A DNA stretch of 64,000 nucleotides from Pseudomonadales bacterium (GTDB lineage Bacteria > Pseudomonadota > Gammaproteobacteria > Pseudomonadales > Pseudohongiellaceae): contig JAJDVS010000103.1 in assembly GCA_022825945.1 (NCBI GenBank), positions 1-64,000 of the forward strand, read 5' to 3'. This document shows positions 47,608 through 64,000 of the stretch, one piece after another (the first letter of the stretch is position 1; every line of letters starts with the position of its first letter). The notes below the pieces were generated by a model. It saw nothing but the letters and a program-made list of their open reading frames with translations. It searched no databases and was not told where the DNA came from. A program made the translations under genes and the position numbers.

Positions 47608-47692
47608 CGTGTTGGAACTCCGCGAAAGCGGCGGCAATAATAGCAGTTCGACGATGACACAACCTGAAATCAGTCGATCCAGGACAAAAATC

Positions 47693-50146
47693 ATGGTGCC
47701 ACAAAAATCCAACTCCGATGAAGTGCGCCGCATAAGGGCGCGTCTCGCGAGTCTGGAAAACGAGAGACTGGCACTGATAGCGCGCCTTGCAGTTTTTGAG
47801 AAGCAGGATCAAACCGAATCCAGTGGTGCTCCACTCCCGGTGAAGGTGACTGGCAAGTCGTCCGCAAACGAGAAGATAGCGCTGTTTCGGTCACTGTTTC
47901 GTGGACGGGACGATGTCTATCCGAGGCGCTGGGAAAATGCGCGAACCGAGAAGGCGGGATATGCGCCGGTCTGCGCCAATGAATGGAAACCGAAACTCTG
48001 TGGCAAGCCCGCGCTGAAATGTGGCGCCTGCCCAAATCAATCCTTTGTTCCTGTTTCCGATGAGGCGGTCGAGTCACACTTGCGCGGTCGGGAGACGCTG
48101 GGCGTTTATCCCATGCTGCCTGATGGCGATTGCCGGTTTCTTGTTGCGGATTTCGACAAGGAGACCTGGCAGACTGATGCTGGAGCATTTCTTGCCGCGA
48201 GCCAATCAAGGCAGGTGCCTGCGGCACTCGAACGCTCGCGTTCAGGCAACGGCGGGCATGTTTGGATCTTCTTTTCTGAGCCGGTATCCTCAGCGCTGGC
48301 GCGGCAGCTTGGATCGCACCTTCTCACGGTAGCACTGGAAACCAATCCCGACATCGGATTCGAATCCTACGACCGGTTCTTTCCCAGCCAGGACACCTTG
48401 CCCGAGGGTGGATTTGGCAACCTTATCGCGCTGCCGTTGCAAGCCGGCCCGCGCGAAAACGGCAACAGCGTGTTTCTGAACGAAAATTTTGAGCCGTACG
48501 CAGATCAATGGGCTTTCCTCTCTTCGCTTCACCGGATGACGCTGGCGGAAGTGTCGGAAATCGTGGATACGGCCAGTCGGCAAGGTCGGGTCATGGGCCT
48601 TCGAATGCCATTGGAACAGGAAGACCGGGAGCCCTGGACCGCCCCGCCTTCCGGGCGAAAGTATGAGCCCACAATCACGGGTGAGCTTCCGGACCAGATT
48701 GCAGTTGTCCTGGCGGACCAACTCTATATTCCAAGAACCGGATTGCCATGCGGATTGGTAAACCGGATCGTTCGGCTTGCGGCCTTCCAGAACCCGGAGT
48801 TCTATCGGGCGCAAGCGATGAGGCGTTCCACTTTCGGGATTCCCCGCGTGATTGCCTGCGCCGAGTTGCAATCCCATCACATCGTCTTGCCTCGCGGGTG
48901 CAGAGAGCCCTTGCGTCAATTGTTCGAAGAACTCGGCATTAACTTCCAATTGACGGACAAGCGGAATTCCGGCCAGCAAATTTCTATCGACTTCCTCGGT
49001 AAACTGGCTACGGAACAGCAATCCGCCGCTGATGCTCTTTCCGCGCATGAGACTGGCGTTCTCGCCGCGGCAACAGGATTCGGCAAAACTGTTGTCGCGG
49101 CGGCGATGATTGCGGAAAGAGGCGTAAACACGCTGGTGCTCGTGCATCGGCGACAACTCATGGACCAATGGGTCATGCAACTCGGAGCTTTTCTCGATCT
49201 TCAGCACGCCACAGTCGGAAGGATTGGAGGCGGTAAACGCAATCCCGGGGGTGTGATTGACGTGGCCATGCTGCAAAGTCTGGTGCGCGGCAATGTCGTG
49301 GCTGACCTGGTGGCGGACTACGGACATTTGATTGTCGACGAGTGCCATCACTTGTCTGCGGTGAGTTTTGAGGCGGTGTCTCGCAAGGCAAAAGCGAAGT
49401 TTGTGCTTGGACTTTCCGCCACTGTTACTCGCAGGGACGGACACCATCCGATAGTTTTCATGCAGTGCGGCACAGTCCGTTACAAGACCAGCGCAAAGTC
49501 GGAGGCGCTCCGGCGCCCATTCCAGCATACGGTACTGGTGCGCCCAACTTCGTTTCGGTTGCCGGCAGGCATGGAGGAGAACCTTCCTTCAATTCAGCAG
49601 ATTTACGCCGCCCTGATTGAAGACGAAGATCGCAACACGCTGATATTCAATGATGTACTGGCTGTGCTAAAGGAAGGGCGATCACCCATTATTCTCACCG
49701 AAAGAAGGGACCACGCCCGCCAGCTTGCCGGGAAACTGGAGGGCGTTGTGGACAATGTACTCCTGTTCCACGGAGGCATGGGAGTAAAGCGGCGCAACGA
49801 ATTCATGAAGCGACTCGAAGAAGTTCCCGACGAAGAGGAGAGGGTGTTGATCGCAACCGGGCGCTATGTCGGAGAAGGTTTTGACGACGCTCGACTTGAC
49901 ACGCTGTTCCTGGCGATGCCGGTGTCATGGAAGGGGACATTGACACAGTACGTCGGCCGGCTGCACCGGCTTCACCCGGGGAAATCAGAAGTCAGGGTCC
50001 ATGACTATCTTGATGAGACCGTGCCTATGCTCAACCGTATGGGCGCCAGGCGAATCAAGGCCTACCAGAGCCTCGGCTACACGGTCAGGCAAGGGGAGGG
50101 GCAGCGCCAACATGGCCAGCATGACGATCGAGTCCTATCGGCTTGA
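47693..50146 (+). CDS. TOTE conflict system-type archaeo-eukaryotic primase fused to a DEAD/DEAH helicase
   Basis: Cys cluster CGKPALKCGACPNQ, AEP-like DGDCRFLVADFD ... GGHVWIFF, helicase ATGFGKTVVAAAMI and DECHH, SAT motif; start chosen by AGGA SD. Confidence 0.8.
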   Translation: MVPQKSNSDEVRRIRARLASLENERLALIARLAVFEKQDQTESSGAPLPVKVTGKSSANEKIALFRSLFRGRDDVYPRRWENARTEKAGYAPVCANEWKPKLCGKPALKCGACPNQSFVPVSDEAVESHLRGRETLGVYPMLPDGDCRFLVADFDKETWQTDAGAFLAASQSRQVPAALERSRSGNGGHVWIFFSEPVSSALARQLGSHLLTVALETNPDIGFESYDRFFPSQDTLPEGGFGNLIALPLQAGPRENGNSVFLNENFEPYADQWAFLSSLHRMTLAEVSEIVDTASRQGRVMGLRMPLEQEDREPWTAPPSGRKYEPTITGELPDQIAVVLADQLYIPRTGLPCGLVNRIVRLAAFQNPEFYRAQAMRRSTFGIPRVIACAELQSHHIVLPRGCREPLRQLFEELGINFQLTDKRNSGQQISIDFLGKLATEQQSAADALSAHETGVLAAATGFGKTVVAAAMIAERGVNTLVLVHRRQLMDQWVMQLGAFLDLQHATVGRIGGGKRNPGGVIDVAMLQSLVRGNVVADLVADYGHLIVDECHHLSAVSFEAVSRKAKAKFVLGLSATVTRRDGHHPIVFMQCGTVRYKTSAKSEALRRPFQHTVLVRPTSFRLPAGMEENLPSIQQIYAALIEDEDRNTLIFNDVLAVLKEGRSPIILTERRDHARQLAGKLEGVVDNVLLFHGGMGVKRRNEFMKRLEEVPDEEERVLIATGRYVGEGFDDARLDTLFLAMPVSWKGTLTQYVGRLHRLHPGKSEVRVHDYLDETVPMLNRMGARRIKAYQSLGYTVRQGEGQRQHGQHDDRVLSA

Positions 50147-54786: not shown

Positions 54787-57009
54787 GCTTCAATGAGGCC
54801 GCCGCCCGAGGGCGGCGGATATGCGACTGGGTTGCACAAATACCAACAGATTCAAGCGACGCTTCAATGAGGCCGCCGCCCGAGGGCGGCGGATATCGGT
54901 CATCAGCGGATTTGGCGAGACTCAACAACGCGCCGCTTCAATGAGGCCGCCGCCCGAGGGCGGCGGATATCTCCCTGTGCGCGTGAAACTCGACGGACGC
55001 GCCGGAGCTTCAATGAGGCCGCCGCCCGAGGGCGGCGGATATGCCTCGTGGCACGGCGTACGGCATCAAATTCCCCCTGCTTCAATGAGGCCGCCGCCCG
55101 AGGGCGGCGGATATGTGCGCTGTTTCGGGCGAATGATTGGGAAATTGTCGCTTCAATGAGGCCGCCGCCCGAGGGCGGCGGATATCTTGGAGCGCGAGTA
55201 CGGCATGCCTTTGCTTAGTGAGCTTCAATGAGGCCGCCGCCCGAGGGCGGCGGATATGGTTCAACTCGCCGAACACTACCGATTCCATTCCGAAGCTTCA
55301 ATGAGGCCGCCGCCCGAGGGCGGCGGATATAAAAAAGGAATACCTAGTAGTAAAAGACTACGGACGGCTTCAATGAGGCCGCCGCCCGAGGGCGGCGGAT
55401 ATCAGACAGGAATAATACTAAATTACCACGAATGCGTTGCTTCAATGAGGCCGCCGCCCGAGGGCGGCGGATATGCCCGTGATCGTTGACGCGTCATCGT
55501 CCTGAGTATGCTTCAATGAGGCCGCCGCCCGAGGGCGGCGGATATACCCAGCCGTCGCGAACAGATATGGGCGCACGTGGGGCTTCAATGAGGCCGCCGC
55601 CCGAGGGCGGCGGATATAAGCTGGTTGCTCGCGTTGCCGCGGTCCACCAGCGAGCTTCAATGAGGCCGCCGCCCGAGGGCGGCGGATATCATCCTCCATT
55701 TCATTGATCGCGTCCTCGATTGAGTCGTCCACCAGCGAGCTTCAATGAGGCCGCCGCCCGAGGGCGGCGGATATGCGCGACTGGCGGGCCAGAATCACCA
55801 CCTACGGGCCGGCTTCAATGAGGCCGCCGCCCGAGGGCGGCGGATATCCACGGGAACAGCGACCTACGAGATTCCGTGGACGGTGCTTCAATGAGGCCGC
55901 CGCCCGAGGGCGGCGGATATCCAGGTCAACGGACCTTTCGCGCCCTTGCTCCTGTTGCTTCAATGAGGCCGCCGCCCGAGGGCGGCGGATATTCGCGAGA
56001 ACCGTGCCCACCCCTTGCAATATGAGCTGCTTCAATGAGGCCGCCGCCCGAGGGCGGCGGATATATCCCACGGATTTGGCAACAGAATCCACGGAAGGCC
56101 AGGCTTCAATGAGGCCGCCGCCCGAGGGCGGCGGATATCGGTTGAATTTATTCCGCTTCATTGTCGGTCTCTTCGCTTCAATGAGGCCGCCGCCCGAGGG
56201 CGGCGGATATGGCGTCGTCGAAAATGGAGAGCCTGTGGCACGAACTGCTTCAATGAGGCCGCCGCCCGAGGGCGGCGGATATCAGGTCTTGGCCAACGAG
56301 GAGGGCGAGGCCGCGATCGCGCTTCAATGAGGCCGCCGCCCGAGGGCGGCGGATATCTCATAGGTCATGGGCACCCCGGCATCCAGCGCGGTGCTTCAAT
56401 GAGGCCGCCGCCCGAGGGCGGCGGATATGTGCGGATTCCGGGTCTTTCCAACGATGAGCTTCTGGCTTCAATGAGGCCGCCGCCCGAGGGCGGCGGATAT
56501 CGTGGCATCGGATGGCACCAGCACCGTGGTCCTGACGCTTCAATGAGGCCGCCGCCCGAGGGCGGCGGATATACCGTCGTGATTCCCGCGAATCTCTACA
56601 CATCGTACGTGCTTCAATGAGGCCGCCGCCCGAGGGCGGCGGATATGTGTCAACCATTTTTCTGCGTTGTTGCACTTTGCTAGCTTCAATGAGGCCGCCG
56701 CCCGAGGGCGGCGGATATTCCAACAATGGAGGATTGGATCAATGACGAATAAATGCTTCAATGAGGCCGCCGCCCGAGGGCGGCGGATATTCATGGTTTT
56801 GGCTATGGACGCATCACACGCGTATGTGCTTCAATGAGGCCGCCGCCCGAGGGCGGCGGATATATGAAATCGCCCGCGCAACGCTCGAAAGCGCGAATCT
56901 CGCTTCAATGAGGCCGCCGCCCGAGGGCGGCGGATATCGTCGTGCTGGTGGACGGCACGACATCCAAATACCTGCTTCAATGAGGCCGCCGCCCGAGGGC
57001 GGCGGATAT
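54787..57009 (-). CRISPR. CRISPR array, 31 identical 36-bp repeats, 30 spacers
   Basis: Plus-strand repeat GCTTCAATGAGGCCGCCGCCCGAGGGCGGCGGATAT; crRNA-sense repeat probably ATATCCGCCGCCCTCGGGCGGCGGCCTCATTGAAGC; spacers 35-38 nt except one of 49 nt. Confidence 0.99.
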
Positions 57010-57210
57010 GGCGCTCGCGCAAGGCGAACTGTGCCAACGGCTCCCAAGCGCGTTTGCGAGAGCCGCGAGCAATAATAGCCTGTTGACTGGTAGTGGCGCC
57101 AATCCGCCGCCGGCCAAGCGTACAACTTCATGTTTTTACGGAACATTGTGGACCACGAGCAGTTCCCGGGGTTTTCGCCGCCACTCGGCCTCTCGTCTCC
57201 GAGCGGCAGT
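57010..57210 (-). promoter_or_regulatory. Putative CRISPR leader
   Basis: About 200 bp between array and cas2; minus-strand TATTAT (57072-57077) as possible -10; polarity supported by the duplication at S12/S13. Confidence 0.5.
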
Positions 57211-57549
57211 TCAAACGATGACCACTTCCCGCTTGACCGGAGAAACGCTTTTCTTCCCCAGTGACACGATTCGCGGCTCAAGCCATTCCGCGGTTCCCAC
57301 ATCGATGATCACTATATGGTCAGCGGTATGGTGGATCAATTCATCGCAATCCGCCAGCAGTTGCGCGTAGCGCGTACTTGTCAACTGGCACTGGAACACG
57401 GAGAGTTGGACCCATTCCCCGTATCCCTGCATCATCCTGTAGATCTTGCGCCAGCGCTTGTTGTCCGCGATGTCGTAGACCACAAAATAGATTTTTTCCT
57501 GGTCTCGCAATTTCCGGTCTCCTCGTTCGATCAAGTCCCGCCCGCGCAA
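57211..57549 (-). CDS. cas2: CRISPR-associated endonuclease Cas2
   Basis: [38 protein letters not shown]. Confidence 0.95.
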
Positions 57550-57552
57550 ACG

Positions 57553-59334
57553 TCATCGTGTCAGAAAGTTGGGGTATTCCGGAATTTCGCCGAGCAGGTA
57601 GCGCGCCAGCAACCTGGCCTGCATTTCGAACAGACGGCGATACTCGACCGCATAGCCAAATAGCGGGTGAGTCACTTCCTGGTCCAGGCGGCGTTCGAAT
57701 ATGGCGATGAATCGCTTGCGGCCCTTGTCCGTCAGGTTCACTCCGACCGGAGTTTCGATGAAATCCGATCTGTCGATTTCTCCGTTATTGATCGCGGTGA
57801 TGACGGACGAATCCACTATCAGCGAGCGGAAAGGCTCCATCATGTCCAGCGCCAGCGCGGGACGGCCATAGCGCGGCTGGTGGAAGAATCCGCGAAACGG
57901 GTCGAAGCCGACCGCGGAAAGAGCGACCACGAACGAGCGGGTCAGCATGGAGTAGCCGAAGGAAAGCATGGCATTGACCGGGTCGGTCGGCGGCCGCCGG
58001 TTGCGGCCGTCCATGTTGAATTGCAATTCCGAATCGCCCGTTTGCTTGAGCATTTTGGGGAAAGCCTGGAAGTAATGCGCAGCCGCGGCGCCTTCGAGGC
58101 CGAGCAAGGATTCGATGCTCGCGGCTGTGCCGACTTCGTTCGACAATAACTTCATACTTCGCAGCGCCGGCGCCGCTCCCTCCTTGTCCGTCCAGTTTCT
58201 GCGCAGCAGCACCCGGCCGTTTCTGATCTTCGCCCGCACCCAGCCTTTCGCCAGCCGCAGGCAGGCGGCATCGTCGAAGGAGCTTCGATATTGCGCCGTT
58301 CTCAGTTCCACGTTCGAGTGTCCCGCGCCCATGGAGTGGCCGAGGAACCAGCCTCCGTAAGACTGCCAGGTTATGGGAATCTCGCGCCGCATCAACTCGT
58401 GCAAGGTCGGCGTGGTGACGTAGACATTGCCCATGAGAACCAGTTGCGACACTTCCGCGAGCCGCGCATATACCGGCTCCTCTTCATCCAGCGTGATGGC
58501 CAGCCGGTTGCCCTGCTTGGCCACTTTCGCCCGATTCGCCTGCACGTAGACCGGCAAGGCGTGCGCGCGGCGCACTGCGATGGGACGCACCTCGGCGCCG
58601 CCGGCCCGCAGCAGGTTCACCTCGTCCGGCAGGCAAATGCCTACCAGGGAGCACCGATTGCACTTGGGGCTGTTTTGCAGCGGCGGGGGAATCTGTCCGC
58701 CTTCGACCACCGAGCGCAATGCGCCTATGGATTGTTTCGTCAGCAGCCGCAGGGATTCGTCGAACGGCACCTTCACTCGCTCCCTGGAACCGGCGAAGTA
58801 CAAAATGCCCTCCGGGCAGCGATAGCCGTGTTCCTCCAGCAAGAGACCCTGGGCACAAAGCTGCACGCGCTCCGGGTCGTAGACTTTTTGCTTGATATGC
58901 GGGCGTTTGCCGCGTTTGTATTCCACCGGAACGACTTCGCCGCCGGGAGTCGGCTCGACCAGATCGATCTTCGCGACCAGGTCCAGTTTCGCGGAGGAGA
59001 GTTCGACGGAACGGGCGGGCTTGAGATCTTCCGGTTCCGTGTCCGAGTCAGGTTCAGGCAAAGGCTCGGACTTCTTGTCCACCCGCCGGTGAACGTGACG
59101 GCCTTCCACCGTGTCTTGAGAGTCGGCCCATTCCTTCTGCACCCATTCCAGATACGCCAGCCGCGGGCAGTAGACGAACTCATTGAGTATGCGCGCCGGG
59201 ATAAGCGGGCTTTCAGGGTGCTTGCCGACATCGAGCGGGAGAGAGAGTTGCAGCGGTGGGCTGTCGGACTCTTCGGTTTCACCGAGCAGGTGGTCCGGAA
59301 TGGGGCGGATCATTTCGGTGGGCATCGGCGGCAT
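57553..59334 (-). CDS. cas4-cas1: Cas4-Cas1 fusion protein
   Basis: Cas4: ILNEFVYCPRLAYLEW, VEYKRGKRP, CNRCSLVGIC; Cas1: FLGHSMGAGHSNVELRTAQY, NAMLSFGYSML, PALALDMMEPFR. Confidence 0.95.
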   Translation of the reverse strand: MPPMPTEMIRPIPDHLLGETEESDSPPLQLSLPLDVGKHPESPLIPARILNEFVYCPRLAYLEWVQKEWADSQDTVEGRHVHRRVDKKSEPLPEPDSDTEPEDLKPARSVELSSAKLDLVAKIDLVEPTPGGEVVPVEYKRGKRPHIKQKVYDPERVQLCAQGLLLEEHGYRCPEGILYFAGSRERVKVPFDESLRLLTKQSIGALRSVVEGGQIPPPLQNSPKCNRCSLVGICLPDEVNLLRAGGAEVRPIAVRRAHALPVYVQANRAKVAKQGNRLAITLDEEEPVYARLAEVSQLVLMGNVYVTTPTLHELMRREIPITWQSYGGWFLGHSMGAGHSNVELRTAQYRSSFDDAACLRLAKGWVRAKIRNGRVLLRRNWTDKEGAAPALRSMKLLSNEVGTAASIESLLGLEGAAAAHYFQAFPKMLKQTGDSELQFNMDGRNRRPPTDPVNAMLSFGYSMLTRSFVVALSAVGFDPFRGFFHQPRYGRPALALDMMEPFRSLIVDSSVITAINNGEIDRSDFIETPVGVNLTDKGRKRFIAIFERRLDQEVTHPLFGYAVEYRRLFEMQARLLARYLLGEIPEYPNFLTR

Positions 59335-59458: not shown

Positions 59459-60412
59459 TCATGCGGTGTGGCGCCGTTTTCCCAGAATCTGACGAGCGCT
59501 CTCACATAGTGAGTTGATGGAAGATACGAGATGCGCCCTGAATCCGGCGTCTTCCACGGTCTTGCCCGCCATTGGCCGGGGAATAAACCGCTGGAGCGTT
59601 TCGAGGAAACTCCGGGAGCCGATGATTTCCTCGCATCCTTCGATAGTCTTGTCCAAAGCCGCAACGTACCGATCGGCGATTTTCCGTTCGACAGCCTTGC
59701 GGGCCGACCGGGCCGCCACGTCTTCGGGAGCGACGTTCCGCCCGAGAATCCACTCGATATCCCAGGCGTCCCGATATCGGGGGTACTCGCGAGTCGCCAC
59801 CGACAAGGGGAACGCGATCAATTTGTCGCTGCAAATATCTCCGACTGACGCGGCGCGGATGGGGAATGGCGCGAATCGGTCCTGAAGCATCGCGTGGCGA
59901 TGCCGGATCGCCGGATACACGATGTCCTCCGGCGCATGTACCCGCTTGTCGATCTCGATTTTGATACGTTGCGTGCCAAGGCCCCGTGTTTTCCCGGCAG
60001 GTCGCGTAACCACTCGCGCGACCCAGCGATCCACCTCTCGCTCGCGGCGACGATCGTTCGGTTGAAATTGTCCGCGCGGTTTGACTTGAACCTCCAGTCC
60101 ATAGCCTCGTCCCAACCTTTCCCGCAGCACCGCTTCGATGTGAACGAGAAACTCGGGGCTGAAAGCCGAGCCTCCTGAAAAATGCAGGTCTTCGCTGAAC
60201 CTCGCGCCGCCGTAGCAAAGCCTGAGGCAGGTGCCGCCCTTGAAAGTCAAATGGCGCAAGATTCCCGCATCGTTCATCGCACCCAGAATTTCGAAGTGCA
60301 GAAGTTCCTTTTCGATGGCTGGGCGGCATCCCGCCAATCCCGGGTCGTCGCGGACAATATACGAAGCGACCGCCAGGAAATCAAGCATTGGCCCGTTCCT
60401 GGATTCCCGCAT
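59459..60412 (-). CDS. abiEii: AbiEii-family nucleotidyltransferase toxin (type IV TA)
   Basis: LTFKGGTCLRLCYGGARFSEDLHFSGG. Confidence 0.9.
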   Translation of the reverse strand: MRESRNGPMLDFLAVASYIVRDDPGLAGCRPAIEKELLHFEILGAMNDAGILRHLTFKGGTCLRLCYGGARFSEDLHFSGGSAFSPEFLVHIEAVLRERLGRGYGLEVQVKPRGQFQPNDRRREREVDRWVARVVTRPAGKTRGLGTQRIKIEIDKRVHAPEDIVYPAIRHRHAMLQDRFAPFPIRAASVGDICSDKLIAFPLSVATREYPRYRDAWDIEWILGRNVAPEDVAARSARKAVERKIADRYVAALDKTIEGCEEIIGSRSFLETLQRFIPRPMAGKTVEDAGFRAHLVSSINSLCESARQILGKRRHTA

Positions 60413-61181
60413 GCCATTCCGCTACGACTTCCGCGTGAATTTCTTCGTCGACAAGATGCAAATTGCCGGGACGCACCCTGCGCAAGTCATCCAGGGCAAG
60501 TTTCGGGGAAGCGACCCGCAGGCCCAGCCTTTCGTCGAAAACCGTATCGCGCAGGATTTCCAGGTCGCCTCTTCTGGTGTGCGAAAATTCAATGTCGCCG
60601 TAACGAGTCGAATATTTTCCCGCGTTGCCCGTCGTCGCAATGAGATAAACCATGGGGACCTGGCTGATCGAGCCGAATTCCGCAAGAGCCGACTCGTAAC
60701 TCAAATAGCAGAACCGGCGGGGGCGGAGGTTCCGCACGATGTCGCCAATCACCGCGAGCCCCGGGTCCGGCAGCGCCCGGTTCACGAATACGCCTCGGGC
60801 GATTCTCTCAAGCAGCCCGGCCGAGACGATTCGCCGAATGCCCGCATTGAAGGTATTGGCATCGTCGGCCTCAAACAGAAGCCGCAGGCTCTGCGTGCCA
60901 ATGACCGGGAACTGACGGCCCGGCCCCAGCACGAGCACCCGGATTGCGTCCTTCAAAGTCATCGTCTGCCGCCGCCGGAAAGCTGTTCCAGAAATATTAT
61001 TAAAAATTACTATTTTATTCCATGTGCCGCGAACACCTCCGGGAACGAAACTTGCGACACCGTTAAGTCGGGTTGGTTTTGGCCTCGCGGGCAATTTCGC
61101 CGAAGTCTTCACAGGCGGCCTGAAAGACATTGCCCACTGCCCCGCCGCTATTGTCGCAACGCCCGTAAACGGAGTCGGCAA
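60381..61181 (-). CDS. abiEi: AbiEi-family antitoxin/regulator
   Basis: YLSYESALAEFGSISQVPMVYLIATTGNAGKYSTRYGDIEFSHTRR; overlaps the toxin gene. Confidence 0.85.
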   Translation of the reverse strand: MPTPFTGVATIAAGQWAMSFRPPVKTSAKLPARPKPTRLNGVASFVPGGVRGTWNKIVIFNNISGTAFRRRQTMTLKDAIRVLVLGPGRQFPVIGTQSLRLLFEADDANTFNAGIRRIVSAGLLERIARGVFVNRALPDPGLAVIGDIVRNLRPRRFCYLSYESALAEFGSISQVPMVYLIATTGNAGKYSTRYGDIEFSHTRRGDLEILRDTVFDERLGLRVASPKLALDDLRRVRPGNLHLVDEEIHAEVVAEWHAGIQERANA

Positions 61182-61566
61182 GCTCCATGAAATTCCACAT
61201 CAGACCGAGCGCCTCCCTGGCATCCGACTTTGCGACATACTCGGCGATGGCTTTGCGCAGGGAATCCAAATCGTCCGCAAAAGCTGGACTTTCGTCCCAC
61301 TCGACAATCCAGCCTGACCGGCACATGTCCGCCATTTGTTTCTGGACCTCCCGGGCCGCCTTAGCCGGACCCTTTGCGCCGGCAAGCTCAAGCCGGAGCA
61401 GGTTCTCGACCGCAGTGTCGTCGGCGGTGATCTCGATCAGCAATTGCGCCAACCGCCATGCGCCGAGAGTCTCCACATCTTCTGTCTTGAATGTCCTTTC
61501 CGTTGCCACGTCACATTTTGCCCTAGGGGATTGTCCCAAATGGGTTGGGTCATTACAGTAGCCCAA
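61063..61566 (-). CDS. DUF6880-like protein, short or truncated
   Basis: ETLGAWRLAQLLIEITADDTAVENLLRLELAGAKGPAKAAREV. Confidence 0.5.
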   Translation of the reverse strand: MGYCNDPTHLGQSPRAKCDVATERTFKTEDVETLGAWRLAQLLIEITADDTAVENLLRLELAGAKGPAKAAREVQKQMADMCRSGWIVEWDESPAFADDLDSLRKAIAEYVAKSDAREALGLMWNFMELADSVYGRCDNSGGAVGNVFQAACEDFGEIAREAKTNPT

Positions 61567-61683
61567 TTAATTGTTAAGCTGAGGCTTCGTCCATCGAATT
61601 GCCATATTTTGATTTGAGATCAGGCCGGGGCGTGACGAAACAGAAGATTACCGATAAGCTGGCTGCTGAAACCGAGAACGATC

Positions 61684-61893
61684 ATGTCGGACAACGAGCT
61701 AACGAAGGCCATCGAACAATGGCGCAGCCTGCCGATGGAGGAACGCCGGCGCCGGCATCTGGAGGCGATTCCGCGTCATGTAGCCAACTCCATGGCGATG
61801 GAGGGCGAGCCGGTGGACGAGGAATGGCTGCGGGAACGACTCGCCCGCCGCATTCGGCAACTCGGTATATTGAAACCTCCGTCGGCATCCTGA
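61684..61893 (+). CDS. VbhA-like Fic antitoxin
   Basis: 69 aa, contains inhibitory-helix motif [S/T]xxxE[G/N] as SMAMEG; directly upstream of and overlapping fic. Confidence 0.8.
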   Translation: MSDNELTKAIEQWRSLPMEERRRRHLEAIPRHVANSMAMEGEPVDEEWLRERLARRIRQLGILKPPSAS

Positions 61894-62435
61894 GCTATCA
61901 GGAACTCGCCCCTTTGTTGGCTGAGCGAGTAGAAGATGCCGAGATCGAAATTCTGGAGAGAAAATTCACGGACGTTCCTATCTGGGAACTGCTACTGCGA
62001 CTTCATAAGCGGATTTGCGCTGATCTTATCCCGGAGATAGCCGGACGCTGGCGTCTTCGGAATGTTCAAGTGGGTTCGCATGAAGCGCCGCCGTACGAGC
62101 AGGTTCCTGTTCTGATGCACAACTACGTTGCAGACCTTGATGCGAGATTGGCAAGTCTCGCGGACGCCCGCGGCGACGAGGTTATCAACGTCCTTACATT
62201 CGCCGAAGGACAGTTGCTGCACATCCATCCGTTCGACGATTTCAACGGTCGTGTCTCGCGCCTGTTCCTCATCGAACTGCTGTACCGATTGGAACTGCCG
62301 GTGATCGACCCTGCTGCCGCTTCGAAGGAGGAAATTAGGAGCTACTTCGAAGCCTTGCAGGCATACGACCAGCGCGACCCGCGTCCGTTGGTCGAGATAT
62401 GGCGGTACCGCATAGAGCAGAGCGGTTCTCGGTGA
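61824..62435 (+). CDS. fic: Fic-family protein (toxin)
   Basis: Fic core HIHPFDDFNGRVSR; start uncertain (ORF open from 61599). Confidence 0.85.
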   Translation: MAAGTTRPPHSATRYIETSVGILSYQELAPLLAERVEDAEIEILERKFTDVPIWELLLRLHKRICADLIPEIAGRWRLRNVQVGSHEAPPYEQVPVLMHNYVADLDARLASLADARGDEVINVLTFAEGQLLHIHPFDDFNGRVSRLFLIELLYRLELPVIDPAAASKEEIRSYFEALQAYDQRDPRPLVEIWRYRIEQSGSR

Positions 62436-62886: not shown

Positions 62887-64000
62887 ATGACCGCGAACTT
62901 CGACTTCGACCAGGCTTTCGTAGCGCTTACCGGGTTTCCTCCATTTCCTTGGCAGCGCCGGTTGTTCGACCACTATCTGTCCAAGGGTGCTTTGCCATCG
63001 GGGGTTGATATACCAACCGGGTTGGGCAAGACAGCGGTCATGGCGATATGGCTGTTGGCGCGTGCGAAACAAGGATTGTTGGAGCAGGCACGAAACGATT
63101 CTGTGGAGCAGGTCGGACATCAATCGCTACCACGTCGTCTGGTTTATGTGGTGGACCGACGCGCAGTTGTGGACCAGGCCACGAATTTCGCCGAAAAAAT
63201 CCGTAATCGACTTCATTCAAGCCAGCTACTCGAACCGGTGCGTCATGGACTGGGTCTAGACGATGATGGAAAGCTGCCCATCTCAACCTTGCGTGGCCGG
63301 TACATCGACAATCGGGAGTGGATGGAAGATCCAAGTGCGGCGGCAATCATAGTCGGCACCGTGGATATGATCGGTTCCCGCCTGTTGTTCGAGGGTTATG
63401 GCGTATCGAGGAAAATGAGACCGTTCGCCGCTGGGCTATTGGGGTGCGACACGTTGATGATGCTGGATGAGGCACATCTCGTGCCGCCCTTCAGGAATCT
63501 GCTCAAGGACATTGAGAGAGGCTCGAACAGTGATATTTTCGGGCCGCAAACCAAAACAGACCGAAAGGTGGTCCCGCCATTCAGGATGCTGCCACTTTCA
63601 GCGACCGGACGGGAAGATCGTGCGTCCAGTAACAGCAGCGTTTTCCAGCTTCAGCCCGAAGACTACGACAATGAAATAGTCAGTCAGCGGCTACGGGCTC
63701 CCAAGCGACTGACTATTATCGAATCGACGGAACTCGTTTCTGAGTTGGCTGAGCGGGCATGGAGTCTGGGGTCGGGCTCAAGTCCAAGGAGAGTGCTTGT
63801 TTATTGCAACAGCCGTGAGGATGCCGTCAAGGTAAAGGCCAATATCGATAAGCGATTGAATAAGCATGGCGATCATTCTGAGTTACTGGTAGGCGCGCGC
63901 CGGGTGTACGAGCGCGAAGACTTGGCCAGATGGCTTCGCGATACAGGTTTTCTCGGCGATACGGATGGGCCTCCCGAACACCCGCTATTTCTGATTGCCA
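62887..64000 (+). CDS. cas3: Type I-G (I-U) CRISPR helicase Cas3, 5' part; runs off the window (absent from ORF track)
   Basis: Open frame to end: PFPWQRRLFDHYL, DIPTGLGKTAVMAIWLLA, DEAHL, LPLSATGR, VLVYCNSREDAVKV. Confidence 0.88.
   Translation, partial: MTANFDFDQAFVALTGFPPFPWQRRLFDHYLSKGALPSGVDIPTGLGKTAVMAIWLLARAKQGLLEQARNDSVEQVGHQSLPRRLVYVVDRRAVVDQATNFAEKIRNRLHSSQLLEPVRHGLGLDDDGKLPISTLRGRYIDNREWMEDPSAAAIIVGTVDMIGSRLLFEGYGVSRKMRPFAAGLLGCDTLMMLDEAHLVPPFRNLLKDIERGSNSDIFGPQTKTDRKVVPPFRMLPLSATGREDRASSNSSVFQLQPEDYDNEIVSQRLRAPKRLTIIESTELVSELAERAWSLGSGSSPRRVLVYCNSREDAVKVKANIDKRLNKHGDHSELLVGARRVYEREDLARWLRDTGFLGDTDGPPEHPLFLIA

Follow-up and report, generated by a model that had tools for sequence, protein, structure and literature searches.

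Ectopic spacer acquisition, in which a new spacer is inserted at an internal repeat, reportedly occurs in CRISPR arrays such as those of S. thermophilus. It and the scar described here are both integration errors recorded in an array, but ectopic acquisition uses another repeat, whereas the present scar appears to combine the right repeat with a wrong cut distance. A closer precedent is provided by type II-A repeat mutants of S. thermophilus, where the spacer-side attack took place in vivo at a guanine 8 nt into the spacer, leaving a partial spacer duplication after full integration that was absent in the wild type (Kim et al., 2019; PMC6895254). Integration in type I-G systems begins with the non-PAM end at the leader side and finishes with the PAM end at the spacer side, and the type I-G MbCas4/1 enzyme placed the spacer side correctly in 60–70% of cases in vitro, versus up to 90% for the leader side (PMC10504553).

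The locus examined here carries a 49-nt spacer in a natural type I-G array. As in the S. thermophilus repeat mutants (PMC6895254), the leader-side attack appears to have been correct, the spacer-side attack appears to have fallen in the first spacer at a guanine (the base at the putative attack site on the + strand is also G), and part of the older spacer is duplicated. Unlike those mutants, with their 8-nt offset and mutated repeats, the offset is 12 nt, the repeat is the same as the other 30, the system is type I-G and the array is natural. The enzyme has the same protein architecture as Methanosarcina barkeri Cas4/1-Cas2, for which spacer-side placement is the less faithful step (PMC10504553), but the M. 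barkeri sites were obtained in vitro on a plasmid, whereas the scar is a completed, inherited array unit. It is an already known error met in nature and does not constitute a new kind; the new information lies in how large the offset is, in the repeat being intact and in an estimate of the rarity with which such events persist in arrays.

The type I-G locus and its leader

The window, that is, the whole 64,000-nt stretch of DNA that was analysed, contains the following parts of the locus.

54787..57009, minus strand: type I-G CRISPR array, 31 identical 36-nt repeats and 30 spacers
57010..57210, minus strand: leader (interval from cas2 to the first repeat; blocks conserved in relatives)
57211..57549, minus strand: cas2g (PADLOC Cas2g)
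57553..59334, minus strand: type I-G cas4-cas1 fusion (Pfam Cas4 and Cas1, PADLOC Cas1g)
62887..64000, plus strand: start of cas3g (profile match; the gene runs past the window end)

The Cas4-Cas1 fusion, with Pfam Cas4 and Cas1 in one protein, was best matched by the Cas1g model (E 8.2e-187 over 45–593), and Cas2 by Cas2g (E 5e-25). The effector genes lie on the opposite strand, divergent from the adaptation genes, at ~C37:62887-69897 of the same contig, with cas8g, cas7g and cas5/6g beyond the window, downstream of cas3g; the E values were 1e-183 for Cas3g, 2.5e-51 for Cas8g, 1.3e-34 for Cas7g (Cas7 of I-U/I-G, csb1) and 4e-98 for Cas56g (cas5/6g, csb2). This gene set indicates that the array is part of a complete type I-G CRISPR-Cas system. 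The divergent adaptation and effector halves are separated by genes for AbiEii, AbiEi and a Fic-domain protein at 59459–62435. Elsewhere in the window, not adjoining the CRISPR genes, an 845-aa protein (47609–50146) has PrimPol-like and helicase-like parts (PADLOC PrimPol, E 3e-92), and a second Cas1-like gene of the same genome, outside the window (G000:C88:7312-7653), probably belongs to another CRISPR subtype. The nearest named Cas4-Cas1 relatives are 97–98% identical and come from Pseudomonadales draft genomes.

Arrays were extracted by one script from 80 Cas4-Cas1 relatives and 100 Cas1 regions of several subtypes, yielding 145 arrays with 4,057 spacers. A 36–37-nt repeat with the end ATTGAAGC is found in the window array and in 61 of 68 I-G-like surveyed arrays, a count that serves as a consistency check only, since arrays were termed I-G-like by TTGAAG near the repeat end.

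The position of the leader was examined on evidence independent of the scar. In relatives with 89–98% identical Cas4-Cas1, the stretch from cas2 to the first repeat keeps blocks around AATGTTCC..AAAA.ATG.AGTTA and GTTCTCGCAAAC, right up to the repeat. The TTGAAG end was used to orient 55 type I-G arrays with six or more repeats; a degenerate terminal repeat was present at the cas2-distal end in 20 of them and at the cas2-proximal end in 2. Because decayed repeats mark the trailer end and are cas2-distal in relatives, this places the leader next to cas2. Leader conservation and trailer repeat decay thus both place the leader between cas2 and the array, the same side, to the right beside cas2, that the first-pass annotation had deduced from the scar. 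That deduction presupposes an accurate leader-side attack and an insertion at the leader end rather than in mid-array.

The 49-nt spacer and length anomalies in surveyed arrays

The minus strand is the crRNA strand of the array, and the repeat reads ATATCCGCCGCCCTCGGGCGGCGGCCTCATTGAAGC in that sense, with zero mismatches across the 31 copies. When repeat starts were recomputed, the start-to-start distance was 71–74 bp throughout, except for 85 bp from 55654 to 55739, just as the first-pass annotation had it. The sole length outlier among the 30 spacers is the 49-nt unit at 55690–55738; the 29 others are 36 nt (n = 17), 38 nt (n = 6), 37 nt (n = 4) or 35 nt (n = 2) long. The features around this unit are as follows.

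55618..55653, minus strand: older spacer next to the 49-nt unit, 36 nt long and source of the 12 nt; in crRNA sense, TCGCTGGTGGAC followed by CGCGGCAACGCGAGCAACCAGCTT
55642..55653, minus strand: original copy of the 12 nt (from sequence); candidate site of the misplaced spacer-side attack
55690..55726, minus strand: 37-nt core of the new spacer (from sequence, spacer extraction and chance estimate)
55727..55738, minus strand: duplicated 12 nt, leader-proximal (crRNA 5') end of the 49-nt spacer (from spacer comparison)
55642..55689, minus strand: copy 1 of the 48-bp target duplication, 12 nt plus repeat (from repeat spacing and spacer comparison)
55727..55774, minus strand: copy 2 of the 48-bp target duplication, 12 nt plus repeat (from repeat spacing and spacer comparison)

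On the + strand the 49-nt spacer ends in GTCCACCAGCGA, the same 12 nt that close the spacer at 55618–55653. The identity stops there, the 13th base being C in one and G in the other, and subtraction of the 12 nt leaves 37 nt, within the normal 35–38 range. Both the exact copy from the preceding spacer and the normal length after trimming had been claimed before, and both hold. The longest end shared by any remaining pair was 5 nt (all 435 spacer pairs of the array), and a 12-nt shared end is expected ~6e-6 to 8e-6 times per spacer end in the 29 neighbouring pairs, as estimated from position-specific base frequencies of the array's own spacers. The identity between the neighbours is not coincidence (chance ~1e-5).

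Read from the leader, the order of units is repeat, TCGCTGGTGGAC plus 37 nt, repeat, TCGCTGGTGGAC plus 24 nt, repeat. The 37-nt core is sandwiched by two copies of a 48-bp sequence (12 + 36), and the X-12-R-Y(37)-12-R geometry is that of an insertion with a 48-bp target duplication in place of a 36-bp one. The duplicated 12 nt lie at the edge of the new spacer that faces the leader, whose position is known independently. In general terms, the long spacer is a normal-length core plus k nt matching the leader-proximal end of the next older spacer, with k = 12 and a core of 37 nt. The duplication with its exact borders and the normal core length are read directly from the array.

In the survey, 19 spacers showed a strong length deviation, several of them with N gaps inside (L036, L041, L079, L089 and L154). 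Among all 4,057 spacers of the 145 arrays, a normal core with a neighbour-derived leader-proximal end was found in the window unit only. In a Thermomonas type I-G array (L083:13990-14140), a 23-nt spacer repeats the opening 23 nt of the one after it; here a repeat and 23 nt are duplicated in tandem with no new insert, which makes it another kind of partial-spacer duplication. Long spacers at L106:19446-19503 and L193:8046-8085 end in the first 22 nt and the first 7 nt of the repeat, respectively, and lead directly into a full repeat, as partial repeat duplications, and a 30-nt spacer in a Dokdonella type I-G array (L080:14683-14712) consists of about four CCTGCGC copies. Slips of 1–3 nt did not prove to be frequent: in type I-G arrays, neighbours shared first bases weakly in excess of expectation under permutation, an effect that disappeared when lag 1 was compared with lags 2–8, and spacer length in these arrays showed no rise with first-base sharing between neighbours.

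Origin of the duplication

The scar very probably arose when the leader-side attack was accurate but the one on the spacer side went 12 bp too far, after which gap filling duplicated the 12 bp and the repeat. We infer the enzymatic step and its timing from the sequence. The spacer at 55618–55653 would have been the newest at the time when Cas4/1-Cas2 brought in a 37-nt prespacer. Attack 1 would have taken place correctly at the leader-repeat junction, and attack 2, in which the PAM-derived end targets the spacer side, would have landed 12 bp past the repeat within the older spacer, at G 55642 of the + strand in place of G 55654. Filling of the gaps would then have doubled the 12 bp and the 36-bp repeat, giving the 49-nt spacer. 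This would have happened with 12 spacers already in the array, and the 17 later insertions would all have been in register. The failing step would be the second, spacer-side attack, since the PAM end goes second in type I-G (PMC10504553). The first-pass annotation had read the unit as off-register Cas1-Cas2 integration, with one nick at the junction and the other 12 nt inside the spacer. The geometry and the independently located leader support this reading; both nick positions stand as the probable ones, and the misplaced step can be assigned more specifically to the second attack. The following spacer (55775–55811) is in register though its target repeat had the same 12-bp flank, so the flank alone would be insufficient for the error.

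The main biological rival is a later change to a normal 37-nt spacer: the repeat and 12 bp of the older spacer would have been copied beside the core through template switching or gene conversion involving adjacent repeats. Such a change would account for the 12 bases. Repeat-anchored rearrangements do exist in similar arrays, as the tandem duplication in L083 and the partial repeats in the long spacers of L106 and L193 demonstrate, and exact spacer duplications are present in several surveyed arrays. However, the rearrangements known from the survey are tandem copies and do not place a fresh 37 nt between duplicated 48-bp sequences, and a later change would require another breakpoint, at the border of core and 12 nt, that has no visible homology and leaves the core at exactly normal length; we consider this origin quite improbable. 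A short-read assembler might instead have added the 12 bp as it crossed the repeated 48-bp sequence, in a genome that is a 113-contig draft and with N gaps inside arrays of related draft assemblies (L036, L079, L089). Yet the scar contains neither N nor a repeat change, collapse of a 48-bp repeat removes sequence and does not add it, and the 12 extra bases would have had to fall precisely at the repeat border and leave a normal-length core, which makes an assembly artefact very unlikely.

Capture of the 49 nt as one contiguous fragment, with the shared 12 nt coincidental or both spacers taken from related phage sites, is scarcely credible. One open frame does run through the 49 nt in the crRNA sense (SLVDDSIEDAINEMED), but, 12 being divisible by 3, this is weak evidence for contiguous capture. 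Against it stand the ~1e-5 chance of an end-aligned 12-nt match with the immediate neighbour and the lengths of ~1,830 I-G spacers, nearly all 34–41 nt with no other of 49 nt; a 20-nt pattern across the junction of 12 and 37 nt had no exact match in IMG/VR.

Protospacers were sought with the 49-nt unit, the 37-nt core, the junction of 12 and 37 nt, codon-degenerate versions of the core and the donor spacer. No protospacer for the core or the donor spacer was found in 50,697 phages, 72,556 plasmids and exact-pattern scans of IMG/VR; the borders of the core are therefore without outside confirmation. Two 20-nt matches in viral contigs were at chance level and differed in their surrounding context, and plasmid matches of 27–36 nt were weak and likewise at chance level. 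Of the two genomes with 97–98% identical Cas4-Cas1 (G032 and G018), one has a contig that stops before the array and the other has a contig with only three repeats. No spacers common to the window array and its relatives were found, and the 37-nt core is absent from the other 83 genomes of the genus.

Predicted guide and meaning of the scar

In type I-G, the crRNA has 8 nt of repeat sequence as its 5' handle (PMC9638904). In the 49-nt spacer, 12 foreign bases are placed between this handle and the 37-nt core, on the PAM side. Because of their position, the guide should fail to match its source at the first 12 positions and the PAM would be missed, and the spacer is probably inactive in interference, a loss of function that we infer from the position of these bases. 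For unusually long spacers, the neighbour-derived end should be trimmed before a protospacer search.

Such a fossil is rare in natural arrays, and the scar is a single event. About 1 off-register event was retained per 4,057 surveyed spacers, versus 30–40% misplaced spacer-side attacks in vitro for a type I-G integrase, and this difference, between figures that are not directly comparable, suggests that cells correct such errors strongly or lose the misplaced products. It appears unlikely that the integrase of type I-G systems can genuinely attack a second spacer-side position, roughly one helical turn past the repeat, with errors that are common at integration, as they are in vitro, but are almost always removed or never completed in cells, leaving ~1 in 4,000 in arrays. 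The scar confirms the polarity of the array without transcription data, and it provides a natural, inherited record of one integrase cycle, preserving which attack would have failed and by how much.
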